IMG/VR virus record: IMGVR_UViG_3300023180_004375
Coordinates: 1 to 22,972 of that record
Source: a virus
DNA length: 22,972 bases
Reading direction: 5' to 3' (one strand)
Part shown: in pieces, positions 6,298-20,280 of the stretch
Layout of the letters: each line of letters starts with the position of its first letter
How positions within the stretch are numbered: the first letter of the stretch is position 1
Position numbers and translations under genes: made by a program
The notes under the pieces: model-generated
Seen by the model: only the letters and a program-made list of their open reading frames with translations
What the model was told of the DNA's origin: nothing
Databases searched by the model: none

Positions 6298-6326
6298 TTG
6301 ACATTTATTAACAACTATTGTATAAT
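6298..6326 (+). promoter_or_regulatory. Early-type sigma70 promoter for bS21
   Basis: Perfect TTGACA (6298-6303), 17-base spacer, perfect TATAAT (6321-6326), embedded in AAACTATTGACATT as in the sister promoters. The expected start site, about 7 bases downstream, is near 6333, three bases before the ATG at 6336. Confidence 0.85.
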
Positions 6327-6335
6327 ATACACTAT

Positions 6336-6620
6336 ATGAGATATAATAATGAATTCCGCGGTCAGTCAATCGACTTAAGACCGAAACCAAGACATCCTAA
6401 GGATAAAAGACCTCCAACACCAATGCCATTTGATGTTGGTCTGAGAAAGTTTAGAAAAGCTGTTGAAAAAGCAGGTACTCTGAAAGAACTCAGAAAACGT
6501 GAGTTTTATGAAAAGCCAACCGCAAAAAGAAAGCGGTTAAAAAACGAGGCAATCAAAAGACATCAGAAAAGAATGGCAATGGAAATGAAACCTTACAGAG
6601 GCAAAAAAAGTTTTAAATAA
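6336..6620 (+). CDS. rpsU: Phage-encoded small-subunit ribosomal protein bS21
   Basis: 94 residues: an N-terminal extension of about 30 ([15 protein letters not shown]) followed by a full bS21 domain. Seen: [17 protein letters not shown], then [16 protein letters not shown] and a basic helical C-terminus ending in [11 protein letters not shown], matching bacterial S21 (FDVALRRFKRSCEKAG, [14 protein letters not shown]). bS21 sits on the 30S platform near the anti-Shine-Dalgarno sequence and helps initiation. Phage copies can replace or supplement the host protein. An upstream in-frame TTG at 6318 precedes the -10 box and would not be in the transcript, so I start at the ATG at 6336. The predicted mRNA begins only about 3 bases before this ATG, making the gene leaderless with no Shine-Dalgarno. 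Confidence 0.93.
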
Positions 6621-7761: not shown

Positions 7762-9045
7762 ATGCAAGATCCTTGGAAAATAATACAAGAATTAGAATCA
7801 GACAACAGTCGTCTATTTAAAGAACAAGTAATTGCCAAATACATTTCAGAACCTATCTTTCGACATGGTCTAATAAAAGCATTAGATCCAATGGTAACAT
7901 TTGGTGTTAAAGAAGTTCCAATTAAAAAGGATCCTACAGGTGAAGGATTGAATTGGGATGATTTTGAAAAGCTTGCATTAGATTTAGAAGAACGTGTTCT
8001 TACAGGACATGCTGCTCGAGATGCTATTCTTGTTTCCATGGCCAAAGCAACACAAGAAGAATGGAACGATTGGTATCGCAGAATTTTAATCAAAGATCTA
8101 CGATGCGGTGTTAGTCATAAGACCGTTAATAATGTACAGAAAAATACTATTCCAGTATTTCAATGTATGCTTGCTCACAGCGGAGATAATAACCCAAAAA
8201 GAATTACAGGTAAATGTATTGTTGAATACAAGTATGACGGTGTAAGAGCAATTGTAATTGTTAAGAACGGCAATGCAACCATTTTTTCTAGAAATGGTAA
8301 AGTACTTTCAAACTTCCCACATATTGAAAAGGCATTTAGTAAAAAGATATTTGATGACTTAGTGTTTGATGGTGAAGTTATGTCTGAAGATTTTCAAACA
8401 TTAATGAAACAAGTACATCGTAAAGAAGGTGCACAAACCGAAGATGCATACTTTGCATTATTTGATTTTTTACCTATTGACGAATTCCAAACAGGAGGTG
8501 GAACATTACCTCTTGATAAAAGAAAGGCCTTAATCCGAGGATTTGAAAATTCTGGGTATTTTGATAATTGTGTCAGAGTACTCAAACATTATGTTGTTGA
8601 TTTAGATACTGATGAAGGAAAAACATCCTTTAAAAAAATTAATGATGAAGCAATTGAAAAAGGATACGAAGGTATTATGGTCAAACCTATTGATGGAGCT
8701 TACGAATGTAAGCGAAGTTATGGTTGGCTCAAAATGAAACCCTTTATTGAAGTTACATTAAAAGTTGTTGATATTGAAGAAGGAACTGGAAAAAATGAAG
8801 GAATCACCGGAGCGTTACTTTGTGAAGGCACCGACGAAGATAAATTTATCAGAGTTAGTGTTGGCACAGGTCTCAGCGATGATCTTAGGAATGATATTTG
8901 GAATAACTCTGACGCTGTACTTGGTCAGTTAGTTGAAATAAGAGCTGATGCTATTACAATCAGTCAAGACTCCGAAGATGTATATAGTTTAAGGTTTCCA
9001 AGGTTTAAAAGTTTTAGAGGTTTTGAACCAGGTGAAAAACTATGA
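7762..9045 (+). CDS. ATP-dependent DNA ligase
   Basis: Seals nicks by enzyme adenylation, AMP transfer to the 5' phosphate and phosphodiester formation. 427 residues: an N-terminal helical DNA-binding region, then the nucleotidyltransferase core with motif I EYKYDGVRA (adenylated Lys157), a motif III region (FDGEVMS), motif IV (EGIMVKP), motif V (WLKMKP, Lys324 and Lys326), and a C-terminal OB-fold with VSVGTGLSDDLR and RADAITISQD. All motifs are intact. Shorter than T4 gp30 but typical of T4-like marine phages. It acts in lagging-strand maturation, repair and recombination with the RNase H-type exonuclease at 13445. It has its own promoter, and its stop overlaps the next start by 4 bases. 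Confidence 0.95.
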   Translation: MQDPWKIIQELESDNSRLFKEQVIAKYISEPIFRHGLIKALDPMVTFGVKEVPIKKDPTGEGLNWDDFEKLALDLEERVLTGHAARDAILVSMAKATQEEWNDWYRRILIKDLRCGVSHKTVNNVQKNTIPVFQCMLAHSGDNNPKRITGKCIVEYKYDGVRAIVIVKNGNATIFSRNGKVLSNFPHIEKAFSKKIFDDLVFDGEVMSEDFQTLMKQVHRKEGAQTEDAYFALFDFLPIDEFQTGGGTLPLDKRKALIRGFENSGYFDNCVRVLKHYVVDLDTDEGKTSFKKINDEAIEKGYEGIMVKPIDGAYECKRSYGWLKMKPFIEVTLKVVDIEEGTGKNEGITGALLCEGTDEDKFIRVSVGTGLSDDLRNDIWNNSDAVLGQLVEIRADAITISQDSEDVYSLRFPRFKSFRGFEPGEKL

Positions 9046-13444: not shown

Positions 13445-14302
13445 ATGATATTAGTTGACTATAACCAAGTTATGCTTGCGTCTTTGTTCGCAGGTATTGG
13501 TAATCACACAAATGTCGAACTTGATGAAAATCTTCTTCGTCATATGTTCTTAAACTCTATTAGATTCAATCGTAAAAAGTTTTCCGGTGAATACGGAGAA
13601 ATTGTTTTATGTTGCGATAATACTAATGTATGGAGAAAAGATTATTTTCCATACTATAAAGCAAATCGTAAAAAGAATCGAGATGAATCTGATATGGATT
13701 GGAACATGTTGTTTGATGTGATTCATGAAATACGCAGAGAGATCGAAGAATTCTTTCCGTATAAAGTAATGTACATTGACCGATGTGAGGCAGACGATGT
13801 TATTGCCGTATTGGTTGAAGAGTTTGGAACTGAATTAAATACAGGCGCAGAAAAAATTCTGATTCTTTCAGGAGATAAGGATTTTATTCAATTGCACAAA
13901 TATGCAAATGTTGACCAGTATAATCCAGTTTTAAAGAAATGGATTCGTCATGCGGATCCTAATAAATATTTACAGGAACATGTATTAAAAGGTGATGTTG
14001 GTGACGGTATTCCAAATATTCTTAGTGCTGATAATTGTCTTGCTATTGGTGACCGCCAAAAGCCAATGACAAAGAAAAGAATTGAAGTATTCACCAACAC
14101 TCCTGAAAACATGGACGAGGAAACAAGATTAAGGTTCAATCGTAATAAACAAATGATTGACCTATCTCAGATTCCTCAACAGTATAAAGATATTATACTG
14201 AATGAATTTAATACACAAGAAGTAATTGGTAGAGAACATCTTTTCAATTACTTCGTCAAGAAAAAATTGAAAAACTTGATTGGAGATTTACAGGATTTTT
14301 AA
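13445..14302 (+). CDS. 5'-3' exonuclease, T4 RNase H-like (FEN/PIN fold)
   Basis: 285 residues with the acidic metal site of the T4 RNase H/FEN-1 superfamily. Seen: MILVDYNQVM with Asp5, VLCCDNTNVWRKDYFPYYKA, ADDVIAVL in the YIDRCEADDV segment, ILILSGDKDFIQL, and KGDVGDGIPN (the H3TH entry). Lengths and motif order match T4 rnh (about 305 residues). The enzyme removes RNA primers and flaps on the lagging strand, working with the DNA ligase. The start lies at the end of TATAAATTATG (13436-13446), with only a weak GGA upstream. Confidence 0.93.
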   Translation: MILVDYNQVMLASLFAGIGNHTNVELDENLLRHMFLNSIRFNRKKFSGEYGEIVLCCDNTNVWRKDYFPYYKANRKKNRDESDMDWNMLFDVIHEIRREIEEFFPYKVMYIDRCEADDVIAVLVEEFGTELNTGAEKILILSGDKDFIQLHKYANVDQYNPVLKKWIRHADPNKYLQEHVLKGDVGDGIPNILSADNCLAIGDRQKPMTKKRIEVFTNTPENMDEETRLRFNRNKQMIDLSQIPQQYKDIILNEFNTQEVIGREHLFNYFVKKKLKNLIGDLQDF

Positions 14303-14303
14303 A

Positions 14304-14750
14304 ATGATTAGAGACTCAATCGCAGAAGTTCTAAACGCGGCTGCAAAAGAAAAAAGCGTTAACAGTAAAGTTGCTGTTCTACAAAAATTTACATCAATAC
14401 CATTAAAAGGTATTCTTCGTTTGATTTATGATGAAGACATTGAATTTATGGTACCTGATAGTAAACCACCTTATAAAGAAAATAACTTGATTGACCTAGA
14501 CACAATGTTGTATAGAGAAGCAAGACGTTTAAGAATTTTCTTCAAAGGCGGTGGTTATGACAACCTAAATCAAATTAGAAGGGAAGCATTGTTCATTCAA
14601 TTGCTTGAAGACCTCGATCCGGCTGATGCAAAAATTTTATCAGAAAATATGATTTCGCATACTCCGGTAAAAGGCATTACAAGAAAGACAGTTGAAGCTG
14701 CTTTTCCTGATTTATTTGATACACCCTTACCTGCTCTTGGATTCAAATAA
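14304..14750 (+). CDS. DUF6433-like conserved T4-like phage protein
   Basis: 148 residues from ATG 14304, preceded by ACAGGA about 8 bases away; an in-frame TTG at 14280 is not supported. The sequence (IAEVLNAAAKEKSV, then KGILRLIYDEDIEFMVPD, LYREARRLRIFFKGGGYDNL, REALFIQLLEDLDPADAKIL, and late KGITRKTVEAAFPDLF) matches the pattern I know as DUF6433, commonly found next to the RNase H gene in marine T4-like phages. No function is known. A link to replication is suggested by the neighbourhood. Confidence 0.8.
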   Translation: MIRDSIAEVLNAAAKEKSVNSKVAVLQKFTSIPLKGILRLIYDEDIEFMVPDSKPPYKENNLIDLDTMLYREARRLRIFFKGGGYDNLNQIRREALFIQLLEDLDPADAKILSENMISHTPVKGITRKTVEAAFPDLFDTPLPALGFK

Positions 14751-14912: not shown

Positions 14913-14941
14913 TTGACATTTCTGATTATTTGTGTTATAAT
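14913..14941 (+). promoter_or_regulatory. Early-type sigma70 promoter for the HAD gene
   Basis: Perfect TTGACA (14913-14918), 17-base spacer, perfect TATAAT (14936-14941). Preceded by TTTCATAAAAACTA. The predicted start is near 14948, just before the ATG at 14952. Confidence 0.85.
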
Positions 14942-14951
14942 ATAATCTGAA

Positions 14952-15557
14952 ATGGAAAAAGAAATGAAAAAAATGGAAAAATACAGAGCCGATAAATTGA
15001 TATTGGTTGACTGTGACGGTGTTCTCCTTGACTGGAAATATGCCTTTTATAGCTGGATGGCTGAAAAAGGTTATAAAATGTATGTTCACGGAGAATACGA
15101 AGTTGCTGATACCTTTAATATTACAAAAGCTGAAGCAAAAGCTTTAATTAGACAGTTTAACGAATCCGCAAGAATTGGATTCTTACCTGGTCTACGAGAT
15201 GCAATTAAATATGTTAAAAAGCTACATGATGAAGGATTTGTCTTTCATTGTATTACTTCTTTAAGTACTGACCATTTTGCTGGTAAGATGAGAGAACATA
15301 ATCTCGAAACTTTATTTGGAAAAGGTGTATTTGAGAAGGTAGTTTGCCTTGACTGCGGAGCTGATAAGGATATTGGATTAGCTCCTTACAAGGATAGTGG
15401 TTGTGTTTGGGTTGAAGATAAACCTGAAAATGCAATATGCGGACTCAATCTCGGACTCAGACCTTATTTAATTGCTCATGATTTCAACGATAATTTCAAC
15501 CATCCTGACATACCAAAAGTTAGGTTATGGAAGGAAATTTACGAAGAAATTGTATAA
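14952..15557 (+). CDS. HAD-superfamily phosphatase, nucleotidase-like
   Basis: Up to 201 residues. Motif I is LILVDCDGVLLDW (nucleophile Asp20 and Asp22). Motif II is near FHCITSLS. The late CVWVEDKPENAICGLNLG supplies the acidic motif. The pattern resembles HAD 5'-nucleotidases and related phage phosphatases, so dNMP or other phosphomonoester hydrolysis is plausible, but the substrate is unknown. Three in-frame ATGs compete: 14952, 14964 and 14973. The first lies only 10 bases after the -10 box, making a near-leaderless mRNA. The second has a GGAAAAAG-like ribosome site. Confidence 0.82.
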   Translation: MEKEMKKMEKYRADKLILVDCDGVLLDWKYAFYSWMAEKGYKMYVHGEYEVADTFNITKAEAKALIRQFNESARIGFLPGLRDAIKYVKKLHDEGFVFHCITSLSTDHFAGKMREHNLETLFGKGVFEKVVCLDCGADKDIGLAPYKDSGCVWVEDKPENAICGLNLGLRPYLIAHDFNDNFNHPDIPKVRLWKEIYEEIV

Positions 15558-15835: not shown

Positions 15836-15879
15836 CATATAAGTTACCTTCAGAGTGTTGATTGCTAAGGAGGTTATAT

Positions 15880-16650
15880 ATGTCAAGACAACAGCGTCGT
15901 TCATCACCAAAGGAGAGAAGGTTATTGAAGAGGAAACAAAAAGGAACTTTAGATGCAAAGTTCTCAATGAAAAATATTTCCCCAATGACAACAACTCAAG
16001 AGGATATGTTTGATAGCTATCGTAATGGATATAATATTGCTGCCATCGGAACGGCAGGCACAGGAAAAACAATGTGTGCGTTATATCTTGGTTTAAGTGA
16101 TATTTTAAACGATGATGATTATGACCAAGTTATTATTGTTCGTTCCGCGGTACAAACTCGGGAACAAGGCTTTATGCCAGGTACCCAGGCTCAAAAAGAA
16201 GCCGTATATTCAGTACCTTATGCTGATATAGTAAACAACTTATTTGGCAGAGGAGATGCTTGGGAAATACTCAAACAAAAGCATTCTGTCAAATTTATGA
16301 CATCGTCGTTCGTTCGCGGACTTACATTTGATAATTCCATTATTATTGTAGACGAATGTCAAAGTATGACCTATCATGAACTTGATAGTATCATAACAAG
16401 AGTTGGTGAAACATCAAGAATCATATTCTGTGGTGATACTGCGCAAGATGATCTTGCCACTTCAAGAAACAGAAACGATATTTCTGGACTTGGAGATTTT
16501 ATTAATGTATTAAAAAGAATGGATCACTCCTTCAAGATAATTCAATTTGGAATTGAAGATATTGTAAGAAGTGGTTTAGTTAAAGAATATATTATAGCAA
16601 AGGAGAGAAACACAATATTTAGTAGGCCTCAGTTAGCAATGACAGCCTAA
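15880..16650 (+). CDS. phoH: PhoH-like P-loop ATPase
   Basis: 257 residues from ATG 15880, chosen for the near-perfect AGGAGG (15868-15873). An in-frame TTG at 15862 lies before that site. A basic N-terminus (RRSSPKERRLLKRKQKG) precedes the ATPase domain: Walker A GTAGTGKT (57-64), the PhoH segment VIIVRSAVQTREQGFMPGT, Walker B SIIIVDECQSMT and the sensor-like IIFCGDTAQDD. PhoH proteins are common in marine phages and are related to RNA/DNA helicase-nuclease ATPases; the phage role is not settled. It is followed by a stable UUCG hairpin. Confidence 0.93.
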   Translation: MSRQQRRSSPKERRLLKRKQKGTLDAKFSMKNISPMTTTQEDMFDSYRNGYNIAAIGTAGTGKTMCALYLGLSDILNDDDYDQVIIVRSAVQTREQGFMPGTQAQKEAVYSVPYADIVNNLFGRGDAWEILKQKHSVKFMTSSFVRGLTFDNSIIIVDECQSMTYHELDSIITRVGETSRIIFCGDTAQDDLATSRNRNDISGLGDFINVLKRMDHSFKIIQFGIEDIVRSGLVKEYIIAKERNTIFSRPQLAMTA

Positions 16651-16694: not shown

Positions 16695-17387
16695 ATGAAA
16701 CTATTTGAACACAATTCAGACGCACCTGTCTTAGAACAACTAACAAGATCCAACGTAGATGGTAAGCGTATTTACCAAACTCCTTCCGGTGAAGGATATC
16801 CTTCGGTCACAACAGTTTTAGGTATTCTTGGAAAAGAAGATCTAATGGCATGGAGACGACGAGTTGGTGAAGAAGAAGCAAATCGTATCTCTACTCAAGC
16901 CGCAAGACGTGGTACTGCTGTTCATAAACTTTGTGAAGAATATTTAAATAATAATCCCGACTATTCTAAAAAGCATATGCCTGCGAATATTCAAATGTTT
17001 AATACGATGAAACCTATACTTGATGAAAAAATAAATAATATTTGGTACCAAGAGTGTTTCTTGTATTCTAACGAATTACAAACCGCAGGCCAGGTCGATT
17101 GTATTTGTGAATGGAATGGTGAACTTGCGGTTGTTGATTTTAAGACGTCAAGAAAACTCAAAAAAGAAGAATGGATACTAAACTATTATATGCAGGTTTC
17201 TTTTTATGCAAAAGCATTCGAAGAAATGACTGGTACTCAAATAAACAAAGGAATAGTATTCATTGGTGTAGATAATGAAGATCCACAGGTGTTTGAGTTT
17301 AATCCTAATGATTATATTGAACATTTTAAAGCGGTAAGAGAAACATATAAAGAACTATATGAAAAAGATAAGGTACATAATTTCTGA
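16695..17387 (+). CDS. PD-(D/E)XK nuclease, Cas4/RecB-like
   Basis: 230 residues. Seen: GYPSVTTVLGILGK at the N-terminus, RRGTAVHKLCEEYL (the conserved GxxxH helix, His as metal ligand), GQVDCICEWNGELAVVDFKT with Asp135, Asp148 and Lys150 forming the D-x-K catalytic core, and NYYMQVSFYAKAF, the QxxxY motif. This is the Cas4/RecB-type exonuclease layout, without the iron-sulfur cysteine cluster of true Cas4. Probably a DNA exonuclease in recombination or host DNA breakdown. The ribosome site AAGGA is at 16683-16687. It overlaps the next gene by 29 bases. Confidence 0.88.
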   Translation: MKLFEHNSDAPVLEQLTRSNVDGKRIYQTPSGEGYPSVTTVLGILGKEDLMAWRRRVGEEEANRISTQAARRGTAVHKLCEEYLNNNPDYSKKHMPANIQMFNTMKPILDEKINNIWYQECFLYSNELQTAGQVDCICEWNGELAVVDFKTSRKLKKEEWILNYYMQVSFYAKAFEEMTGTQINKGIVFIGVDNEDPQVFEFNPNDYIEHFKAVRETYKELYEKDKVHNF

Positions 17388-17706
17388 CGATCATATGGGT
17401 GTATTCCTAGGTACATATAATGGATATGATTTAGGAATGGAAGATGACAGTAGAATTTATGCTTGCTTTGCTGCCAACAATCCTTTTGGTTTAACCACAG
17501 CCTGTTCTTTTAAAACTGAAAGAGCAGCTTACCATTTTATTAGAGATATGTTTCCACCGAAAAAACATGGTATGTTAAAAACATTCGCGGTCGAAACAGA
17601 GAGCGAATTTCCAACCGTTGTAGAAATGATTAAGTCAGGTCATGCAGATATTACATTTGACATGATTGACAGTTTGATGCCAGCTGGAAGTACTACTATT
17701 CATTAA
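17359..17706 (+). CDS. Hypothetical phage protein, 115 aa
   Basis: ATG at 17359 inside the end of the nuclease gene, without a clear ribosome site. A beta-rich N-terminal part (RYIISDDHMGVFLGTYNGYDLG) is followed by FAANNPFGLTTACSFKTERA and a helical end. The pattern suggests a compact globular protein. I recognise no domain. A TATAAATA box and an early promoter follow immediately. Confidence 0.75.
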   Translation: MKKIRYIISDDHMGVFLGTYNGYDLGMEDDSRIYACFAANNPFGLTTACSFKTERAAYHFIRDMFPPKKHGMLKTFAVETESEFPTVVEMIKSGHADITFDMIDSLMPAGSTTIH

Positions 17707-17714
17707 TATAAATA
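17707..17714 (+). promoter_or_regulatory. Candidate T4-type late promoter next to an early promoter
   Basis: Exact TATAAATA directly upstream of the TTGACA at 17719. With the early promoter it would let the HD-hydrolase gene be read in both phases. No direct evidence of use. Confidence 0.4.
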
Positions 17715-17718
17715 TCTA

Positions 17719-17747
17719 TTGACATTACGATAAAGATAGATTATAAT
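17719..17747 (+). promoter_or_regulatory. Early-type sigma70 promoter for the HD hydrolase
   Basis: Perfect TTGACA (17719-17724), 17-base spacer, perfect TATAAT (17742-17747). The ATG lies 9 bases after the -10 box, so the transcript would be leaderless. Confidence 0.85.
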
Positions 17748-17756
17748 ACAACTAAT

Positions 17757-18290
17757 ATGTTAATTTCAGATAAAAGATTAGTTCAAGAAGCGTTAATGTT
17801 GTGCATCAAAGCACACGATGGTCAGAGACGGAAATATACCGGAGAGCCATACGCAACCCATCCTATTGGAGTTTCAAAGATAATTGAATCTGTTGACCAT
17901 ACACCTGAGATGGTTGCAGCTGCTTTATTGCATGATGTTGTTGAAGATACACACGTAACGTTTAGAGAAATCAAAGATACCTTTGGTTCTGTTGTTGCAG
18001 AGTATGTTCATTATTGCACTAACGTTTCAGAGCAATCTGACGGCAATCGTAAATTCCGTAAAAAGATGGATGCCGACCATTTCGCATTAGGACCTGCTGA
18101 AAGTCAAACGATTAAGGTTGCTGATTTGATTCATAACAGTCAAACCATTATACCTCATGACCAAAAATTCTTTCATAAAGCTTACAAATACGAAAAGCAA
18201 TATATGATGGATGTTTTAACCAAAGCAGATCCTGTCCTCAAAGGTCAAGCGCAGTCGATGCTTGACGAAGCATGGAATCCGGCCAAATAA
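17757..18290 (+). CDS. HD-domain hydrolase, SpoT/MESH1-like (possible ppGpp hydrolase)
   Basis: 177 residues, a single HD domain as in MESH1 and small alarmone hydrolases. Seen: AHDGQRRKYTGEPYATHP with His35, AAALLHDVVEDT with the His59-Asp60 pair, and QTIKVADLIHNSQTI with Asp123. This is the four-ligand Mn2+ site of SpoT-type hydrolases, and the spacing is that of MESH1. The Arg/Lys-rich loop (RRKYTGEPY) contacts the nucleotide in that family. The likely reaction is removal of the 3' pyrophosphate of (p)ppGpp, which would blunt the host stringent response; another nucleotide substrate is possible. There is no synthetase, TGS or ACT domain. The gene starts 9 bases after the -10 box with no Shine-Dalgarno. 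Confidence 0.88.
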   Translation: MLISDKRLVQEALMLCIKAHDGQRRKYTGEPYATHPIGVSKIIESVDHTPEMVAAALLHDVVEDTHVTFREIKDTFGSVVAEYVHYCTNVSEQSDGNRKFRKKMDADHFALGPAESQTIKVADLIHNSQTIIPHDQKFFHKAYKYEKQYMMDVLTKADPVLKGQAQSMLDEAWNPAK

Positions 18291-18360: not shown

Positions 18361-18392
18361 TTTCATAAAAACTATTGACATTCTTTATGAAA
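18361..18392 (+). promoter_or_regulatory. Inverted repeat centred on the -35 box (operator-like)
   Basis: TTTCATAAA (18361-18369) and TTTATGAAA (18384-18392) form a perfect 9-bp dyad separated by 14 bases. Its axis falls on the start of TTGACA. The same dyad with the same spacing recurs at 22067-22100. Confidence 0.55.
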
Positions 18393-18403
18393 GCGGTTAT
18401 AAT
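18375..18403 (+). promoter_or_regulatory. Early-type sigma70 promoter for gene 18435
   Basis: Perfect TTGACA (18375-18380), 17-base spacer, perfect TATAAT (18398-18403), followed after 5 bases by TATAAATT (18409-18416) and an AAAAGG ribosome site. Confidence 0.88.
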
Positions 18404-19323: not shown

Positions 19324-20280
19324 ATGGCACATGAAATTGAAATGGTAAACGGTGTAGCTGCAATGGCTTACCGTGAAAGCAAAGGATTGCCTTGGCATGG
19401 TCTTGGTGTTCCTGTATCGGATGATATGACTCCGATTGAAATGATGAAAGCTGCTAATCTTGATTGGACAGTTTCTAAGAAAAAGTCATTTGTTGAAATC
19501 AACGGTGAAAAGGTTGAGACTGGACAAGAGGCTTTGGTTCGAGATACTGACGGCAAGATTCTGACTAATGTTTCTGGTAATTGGAAACCATGTCAGAACC
19601 TAGAAGCTTTTGAGTTCTTTACTGACTTTGTATCAAACGGTGATATGGTCATGGACACAGCAGGTAGTCTAAAAGACGGTCAAATGGTCTTTGCTGCTGC
19701 TGATGTTAAAGACGGATTCACTCTGTTTGGTGGAGATGAAGTAAAAGGATATCTTTTGTTCAGTAATCCTCATGTTTATGGAAAATCCATTGATGTGAAG
19801 TTTGTTATGACTCGAGTGGTATGTAATAATACTCTGTCTATGGCATTGACTGAACGAGGTCAACCTGCGGTTCGTCTATCGCATCGAAATGAGTTCGATC
19901 CTGAACTTGTTAAGCAATTACTTGGTATTTCACATACTAGGATTGAGCAATTCAAAGAAGCTGCTGAGTTCCTTGGTTCCAAGCGTTATACAGATGTTGC
20001 TTTCCAAAAGTTCCTCGGTCAAGTATTTGGTGTTTCTAACCAAAAAGACAAAGAACTTTCTCGAACTGCAGAACGTGCATTGGAGATCGTTGATACTCAA
20101 CCAGGTGCAAATTTTGCTCCAGGAACATGGTGGAATGCATACAATGCAGTAACCTATATGACTGACCATGAAATGGGAAGGTCTGCTGATACAAGAGCTG
20201 CGGCTGCTTGGTTCGGACATAACGCAAAAAGAAAGCTTGATGCTCTCAACATTGCGGTTGAAATGGCGGAGGCTGCGTAA
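19324..20280 (+). CDS. DUF932 phage/plasmid-like protein
   Basis: 318 residues with the DUF932 (TIGR03299) layout. The start MAHEIEMVNGVAAMAYRESK, then GLPWHGLGVPV, is the family opening. It continues with WTVSKKKSF, VSGNWKPCQNLEAFEFF, VVCNNTLSMAL and RLSHRNEF, and ends with NAYNAVTYMTDHEMG and RSADTRAAAAWFG. The function is unknown; members occur in phages and plasmids and are thought to be DNA-associated. It has its own strong promoter, an AAAAGGAG ribosome site and a strong terminator that overlaps its stop, so it is a single-gene unit with expected high expression. Confidence 0.92.
   Translation: MAHEIEMVNGVAAMAYRESKGLPWHGLGVPVSDDMTPIEMMKAANLDWTVSKKKSFVEINGEKVETGQEALVRDTDGKILTNVSGNWKPCQNLEAFEFFTDFVSNGDMVMDTAGSLKDGQMVFAAADVKDGFTLFGGDEVKGYLLFSNPHVYGKSIDVKFVMTRVVCNNTLSMALTERGQPAVRLSHRNEFDPELVKQLLGISHTRIEQFKEAAEFLGSKRYTDVAFQKFLGQVFGVSNQKDKELSRTAERALEIVDTQPGANFAPGTWWNAYNAVTYMTDHEMGRSADTRAAAAWFGHNAKRKLDALNIAVEMAEAA

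Follow-up and report, generated by a model that had tools for sequence, protein, structure and literature searches.

The window analysed here, 22,972 nt corresponding to positions 1 to 22,972 of IMG/VR virus record IMGVR_UViG_3300023180_004375, carries on its plus strand a gene for a 177 aa protein with a single HD domain (17757–18290, ATG start), recognised by Pfam, PHROG, alignment and predicted fold and referred to below as SAH, for small alarmone hydrolase. Upstream of it on the same strand lie genes for a PhoH-like ATPase (15862–16650; Pfam and PHROG), a PD-(D/E)XK exonuclease (16695–17387; PHROG_298) and a 115-aa protein (17359–17706) without a family match in Pfam or PHROG. Among the best 80 of 134 related SAH loci these three were found in 78, 80 and 80, respectively, the last always 5' of SAH. 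SAH is immediately preceded by a sigma70-type promoter with both hexamers perfect (TTGACA-17-TATAAT, 17719–17747, plus strand). Further upstream is a gene for ribosomal protein bS21 (6318–6620, plus strand), already proposed in the initial annotation and confirmed here by TIGR00030 (53.2 bits against 28.95) and Pfam PF01165. Rfam gave no match at the gathering threshold, and no tRNA was found.

The SAH protein matches Pfam HD_4 with 56.8 bits (cut-off 27.2, E 2.9e-15) and PHROG_990, 'metal-dependent phosphohydrolase', with an E-value of 4.2e-32, the latter profile being longer than SAH (374 positions, of which 153–303 are matched). Its Pfam matches are to HD only, with none to a C-terminal regulatory domain. 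Solved SAH and RSH chains are also matched by sequence (best E 4.4e-19), namely Lmo0812, SpoT/Rel, MESH1 and other SAHs. The initial annotation had read the protein as a single-domain SpoT/MESH1-type HD hydrolase with His35, His59-Asp60 and Asp123 and no synthetase domain, and this description holds: H35, H59, D60 and D123 occur at exactly those positions, accompanied by the further residues of the set, R25-K26, E63-D64 (the 'ED' of HDxxED) and N127, and PF04607 (RelA_SpoT synthetase) has no match in the window or in any of six long related contigs (including ones of 156 kb and 137 kb, and possibly fragments), each of which has one HD_4 match. Conservation was assessed over 81 proteins, i.e., that of the window and those of the best 80 of 134 related viral loci, which reduce to 50 distinct sequences. 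Throughout these 50, R24, R25, K26, H35, H59, D60, E63, D64 and D123 are invariant, N127 is kept in 49, and residue 130 is either T (26) or S (24). Seven relatives were tried for dN/dS and two of other length left out; against the five of equal length the values were 0.05–0.08, and the gene is therefore under purifying selection.

An AlphaFold2 model of SAH, built from a 36-row alignment of the phage family, had a mean pLDDT of 94.3 and a pTM of 0.90, and in a Foldseek search with this model human and fly MESH1 and bacterial SAHs ranked first. Comparison of the predicted structure with MESH1 had been suggested as a check at the outset, and VIA-align gave a Z of 23.9 and an rmsd of 1.9 Å over 169 aligned residues for human MESH1 (9chy_B). 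The MESH1 (HDDC3) proteins of human and Drosophila thus have the same fold as the SAH model (Z 22.9–23.9) and are found by sequence search too, although sequence identity is only 25–26%. The P. aeruginosa SAH followed with a Z of 22.4. General HD proteins ranged from Z 12.6 down, and the HD nucleotidases YfbR, OxsA and phage DatZ reached 7.3–7.7, against 22–24 for SAHs. Judged by its residues and predicted fold, the window protein is a small alarmone hydrolase.

Phage SAHs are already known and frequent, and from its matches the window enzyme is an ordinary one for large phages. Relatives occur in 252 of 50,697 named-phage records (E 1e-5 or better), all below 60% identity, and IMG/VR has 134 stretches that encode one, the best 80 of these at 65–100% identity. 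A Pseudomonas phage SAH of uncertain preference is discussed in PMC12846349. One record of this kind deserves a remark: in Agrobacterium phage OLIVR5 (L217:1318–2004) the (p)ppGpp enzyme is annotated on the minus strand, at a position shifted from that of the plus-strand match, and the annotation in the record may be misplaced. The nearest functionally studied relative found by sequence is PaSpo of Salmonella phage SSU5, which is likewise phage-borne with a single HD domain and shows 41.6% identity across 82% of the query. Both contain a block extending from (D)GNR via an ADL..N stretch to Y..EK; GNR is present in 13/13 aligned phage rows, in none of six long RSH and in none of three other cellular SAHs. 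PaSpo differs in being longer (213 aa as annotated) and from another phage, and in having a published activity, on toxSAS-modified tRNA.

The HD domain of the bifunctional RelA/SpoT/Rel enzymes is also homologous to SAH (32–42% identity over the matched part), but SAH lacks their synthetase and regulatory domains and sits on a separate branch of the tree. In this tree (32 rows; L232, L236 and L247 were left out) a branch with support 86/86, found in 88% of bootstrap trees, separates the phage SAHs, including PaSpo, and two bacterial sequences, L229 and L230, from eight long RSH and three further short cellular SAHs. Support for this branch is moderate and the branching order within the phage group has no resolution, so that the window SAH can be grouped, with moderate support, with the PaSpo-like phage SAHs and apart from the long RSH.

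A recent acquisition of SAH from a host was considered and is unsupported, the cellular relatives being 32–42% identical (80 loci kept of at least 583 relatives) and mostly in long frames: 75 of the 80 exceed 400 aa, three are short and two are cut. The sequences L229 and L230 came from 289 genomes sampled from the class to which a Kordiimonadales genome belongs, a class that was chosen because the window carries a gene for 5-aminolevulinate synthase; phages with such a gene may infect further classes too, according to PMC11480375. SAH matched in 267 of the 289 genomes, and these two were outliers. L229 scored 155 bits with a 190-aa frame, and L230 scored 124 bits within a 548-aa open frame that has a plausible internal start, while the next best score was 85 bits. 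The DGNR block is present in L229 and takes a varied form in L230. The initial annotation had assumed a marine, nutrient-starved host, and this part could not be sustained, since none of the searches gave a host or a habitat. Compared as a whole with the 50,697 phage records (a collection that may omit very near records), the window had no near match. By exonuclease, the closest named phages among the matches listed are T4-like cyanophages and Phage C48C1 (42–46%), the latter having no SAH match in a search run without a positive control. A DUF932 protein of the window (19324–20280) is about 51% identical to its closest named counterparts, in Sinorhizobium phiM12-type phages and the Methylophilales Melnitz phages.

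The position of SAH in the genome is strongly conserved. In the best 80 of 134 loci the 115-aa gene is directly 5' of SAH or, in 18 of them, separated from it by a gap of at least 200 nt. Nine stretches were chosen for inspection, and eight have an extra ORF of about 239 aa between the two genes (e.g., L005:5242–5958, L006:3655–4371, L029:5240–5956), which by its look we take to be methyltransferase-like; in the ninth, L028, a non-corresponding stretch was read. Since the 80 loci had been picked by SAH, the scan was repeated with the exonuclease as query, giving 63 loci. In 41 of these the sequence continues for 950 nt or more past the exonuclease, and SAH is present in all 41. With the limit lowered to 900 nt it is present in 41 of 42, the exception (L202) ending inside the inserted ORF. 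As the two scans have many contigs in common and reach close relatives only, the second is independent by query and not by contigs.

The promoter of SAH is unusually close to its start codon. Only 9 nt separate the end of the -10 box from the ATG, and since transcription usually starts about 7 nt past this box, a leaderless mRNA, or one with just a few nucleotides of leader, is predicted. There is no Shine-Dalgarno (SD) match in the 15 nt before the ATG, but this is not special to SAH, because a match is lacking at 14 of the 35 start sites that were examined across the window. Nine exact TTGACA-N17-TATAAT sites (TTGACATT-N15-TATAAT) were found on the plus strand of the window, beginning at 6298, 6624, 7710, 14913, 17719, 18375, 19262, 20320 and 22082, and a tenth, with an N16 spacer, lies inside a RuvC-like gene on the same strand; the minus strand of the window has no exact site. 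The number is far above the chance expectation of 0.03 exact sites per Markov sequence (plus strand), and the nine sites are probably early promoters read by the host polymerase. The next perfect promoter 3' of SAH (18375–18403, plus strand) provides a contrast: the first ATG is 13 nt past its -10 box, and a second (18435), 31 nt past it, is preceded by the SD-like AGGTG. A candidate late promoter, TATAAATA, at 17707 was dropped, there being two such sites in the window against 3.26 expected by chance.

The SAH promoter is widely retained among relatives. In 44 distinct upstream regions from the best 80 of 134 loci, it is exact in 23, has at most one mismatch in 32 and at most two in 36, and in a control with one shuffled sequence per region the corresponding counts were none with at most one mismatch and two with at most two. 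It is absent or poor (at least three mismatches) in L034, L042, L043, L045, L046, L065, L070, L072–L079 and L081. In the relatives (best 80 of 134 loci) the SAH ATG mostly follows the -10 box at 6–9 nt, with longer distances of 24 and 27 nt in L050 and L056.

When the survey of start sites was widened to 241 distinct promoters (at most one mismatch) from 81 sources, the first ATGs formed two main humps, at distances of 6–13 nt and of about 25–37 nt. For SAH the distance is 11 nt or less in 28 of 30 distinct promoters. Such short distances were never seen for DUF932 (0/13), g21 (0/23), g23 (0/11) or exonuclease 107 (0/33), and the other cases belonged to bS21 (1/1), phrog_420 (13/42), g18 (4/6), g19 (1/26) and unlabelled genes (3/41), the three unlabelled ones having a later ATG preceded by an SD-like stretch. 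Among the long-leader genes of the window, an SD-like match is present for ligase, g18 (at its second ATG), DUF932 and g21, but not for exonuclease 107. On these distances, the phage mRNAs apparently fall into two classes, one of them leaderless. Within the window, bS21 (6298–6336), phrog_420 (14913–14952) and SAH (17719–17757) all start 9–10 nt past a perfect -10 box, and the other genes behind the same type of promoter have leaders of about 23–33 nt, most with an SD-like match.

The layout of bS21 resembles that of SAH, in that its likely start, ATG 6336, is 9 nt past the -10 box of the promoter at 6298–6326. Upstream sequences were taken from 76 of 80 bS21 loci (four with little upstream sequence were left out) and from 80 loci of phrog_420, skipping regions shorter than 130 nt and repeats. 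The 54 distinct bS21 regions include 44 with a promoter of at most one mismatch, and the distance to the ATG is 7–9 nt in six of these, all from the closest relatives, 11 nt in one and 23–36 nt in 36, from more distant phages and in many cases with GGAG ahead of the ATG; one has no assigned distance. The phrog_420 start is 10 nt from the promoter in 11 of 25 distinct cases, and a leaderless reading of this gene is doubtful because a second in-frame ATG follows 12 nt further on.

The reading favoured here, to which we give a probability of about 0.52, is that SAH is a Mn-dependent, PaSpo-like phage enzyme made early from a leaderless mRNA, and that it cleaves (p)ppGpp and so lifts a block on initiation. 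The host RNA polymerase would transcribe the gene early, into a leaderless mRNA, starting from the gene's own consensus promoter, and the product would be a Mn-dependent, single-domain 3'-pyrophosphohydrolase that removes the 3' pyrophosphate of (p)ppGpp, and probably also that of related 3'-pyrophosphorylated substrates. Loss of (p)ppGpp would then release a starved or stressed host from the block on growth and on translation initiation, allowing other phage genes to be made. Metal, substrate, timing, leaderless transcript and host effect are all matters that we infer. With SAH present in all testable loci, a target common to nearly all hosts is a better fit than a sporadic defence, and the synthetase domain does occur in 266 of the 289 class genomes, although this is an argument and not a proof. 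That the phage shuts down the stringent response had been put forward in the initial annotation; the enzyme class on which this idea was built stands, and the shutdown itself is now the leading option among several, given that the substrates of SAHs vary.

A possible but clearly less probable role is counter-defence, in which SAH would reverse the products of toxSAS enzymes of the CapRel type, so that abortive infection fails, either by taking the pyrophosphate off the CCA end of tRNA or through hydrolysis of (p)ppApp. The relationship with PaSpo, on the same side of the tree branch, speaks for this. PaSpo is reported to remove the tRNA modification installed by FaRel2 (PMC11559606), and PMC9712102 describes its co-expression for the purification of CapRel-SJ46, because it neutralises toxSAS. 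The SAHs of phages SSU5 and PVP-SE1 also rescued FaRel toxicity, as PMC7644958 relates of Jimmy et al. 2020. Against it, the gene is a constant of the 41 testable loci, yet a second synthetase-domain match was read from the table for only 11 of the 289 class genomes (PF04607 may miss divergent toxSAS), one such domain being present in 266 of them. PADLOC, in addition, had no match for SAH or for three of the four scanned neighbours, the fourth, the exonuclease, giving matches of Cas4, Cas1 and DruK type.

It is unlikely, though conceivable from what is known of the family, that the main substrate is another one, such as (p)ppApp, NADPH or an unrecognised 3'- or 2'-phosphorylated nucleotide of the infected cell. 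Characterised SAHs do differ: in the account of PMC7644958, RelSeq is confined to (p)ppGpp and SAHMex to (p)ppApp, and Mesh1 hydrolyses both. XccSAH is promiscuous and also acts on NADPH, with an activity about 40-fold below that of Mesh1 (PMC9765508). The folds closest to the SAH model include structures of human MESH1 with NADPH and with PAPS. Cyanophage MazG, once implicated in lowering (p)ppGpp, offers a precedent for a wrong assignment, as it is reported neither to bind nor to hydrolyse (p)ppGpp (PMC6850273). With known SAHs varying in this way, and the MazG guess refuted by assay, a claim of (p)ppGpp as substrate is not decidable by sequence alone, and the residues for base specificity proposed in PMC7644958 are called unsettled by its authors. 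SAH retains the residues of (p)ppGpp hydrolases (R-K, H, HD, ED, D, N), which argues against a different main substrate, though they would be expected in other SAHs too, and no positive sign of such a substrate was seen. A catalytically dead HD protein kept for binding, e.g., as an alarmone sponge, is very improbable in view of the invariant catalytic residues, the near-invariant N127 and the high-confidence predicted enzyme fold.

If the favoured reading of SAH as a (p)ppGpp hydrolase is followed, the short leader acquires a possible meaning. According to a review (PMC9031893), leaderless mRNAs are for the most part initiated directly by 70S ribosomes, and (p)ppGpp inhibits canonical translation and may activate leaderless translation. 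A leaderless hydrolase mRNA could thus be favoured in the very state that the hydrolase removes. More speculatively, and we hold this with little confidence, the SAH mRNA would escape or even profit from the (p)ppGpp block, and SAH, among the first phage proteins to appear in a starved host, would clear (p)ppGpp and open canonical initiation for the leadered early genes, with bS21, in the same layout, as part of the take-over. Among the leading papers listed on leaderless mRNA with phage, S21 or ppGpp, none dealt, judging by title and opening of the abstract, with a phage alarmone hydrolase in such a layout.

Phage SAHs are widespread, mostly under the label 'phosphohydrolase' or the name of a host enzyme, and in the literature surveyed what they do during infection is unproven. 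What is new here is an SAH with a fixed place in the genome, a strong promoter and a start codon almost without a leader, which makes it directly testable whether phages disarm the stringent response and how the protein is made during a block on initiation.

Some other genes of the window may also be mentioned. A PHROG_461 protein (14280–14750) has a weak match to part of a phage DNA ligase family (E 1.7e-5), alongside a separate full-length ligase (7762–9045). The 5-aminolevulinate synthase (976–2184) matches TIGR01821 with 549 bits (cut-off 338.55), and Shemin-pathway genes of this kind in phages have already been published (PMC11480375).
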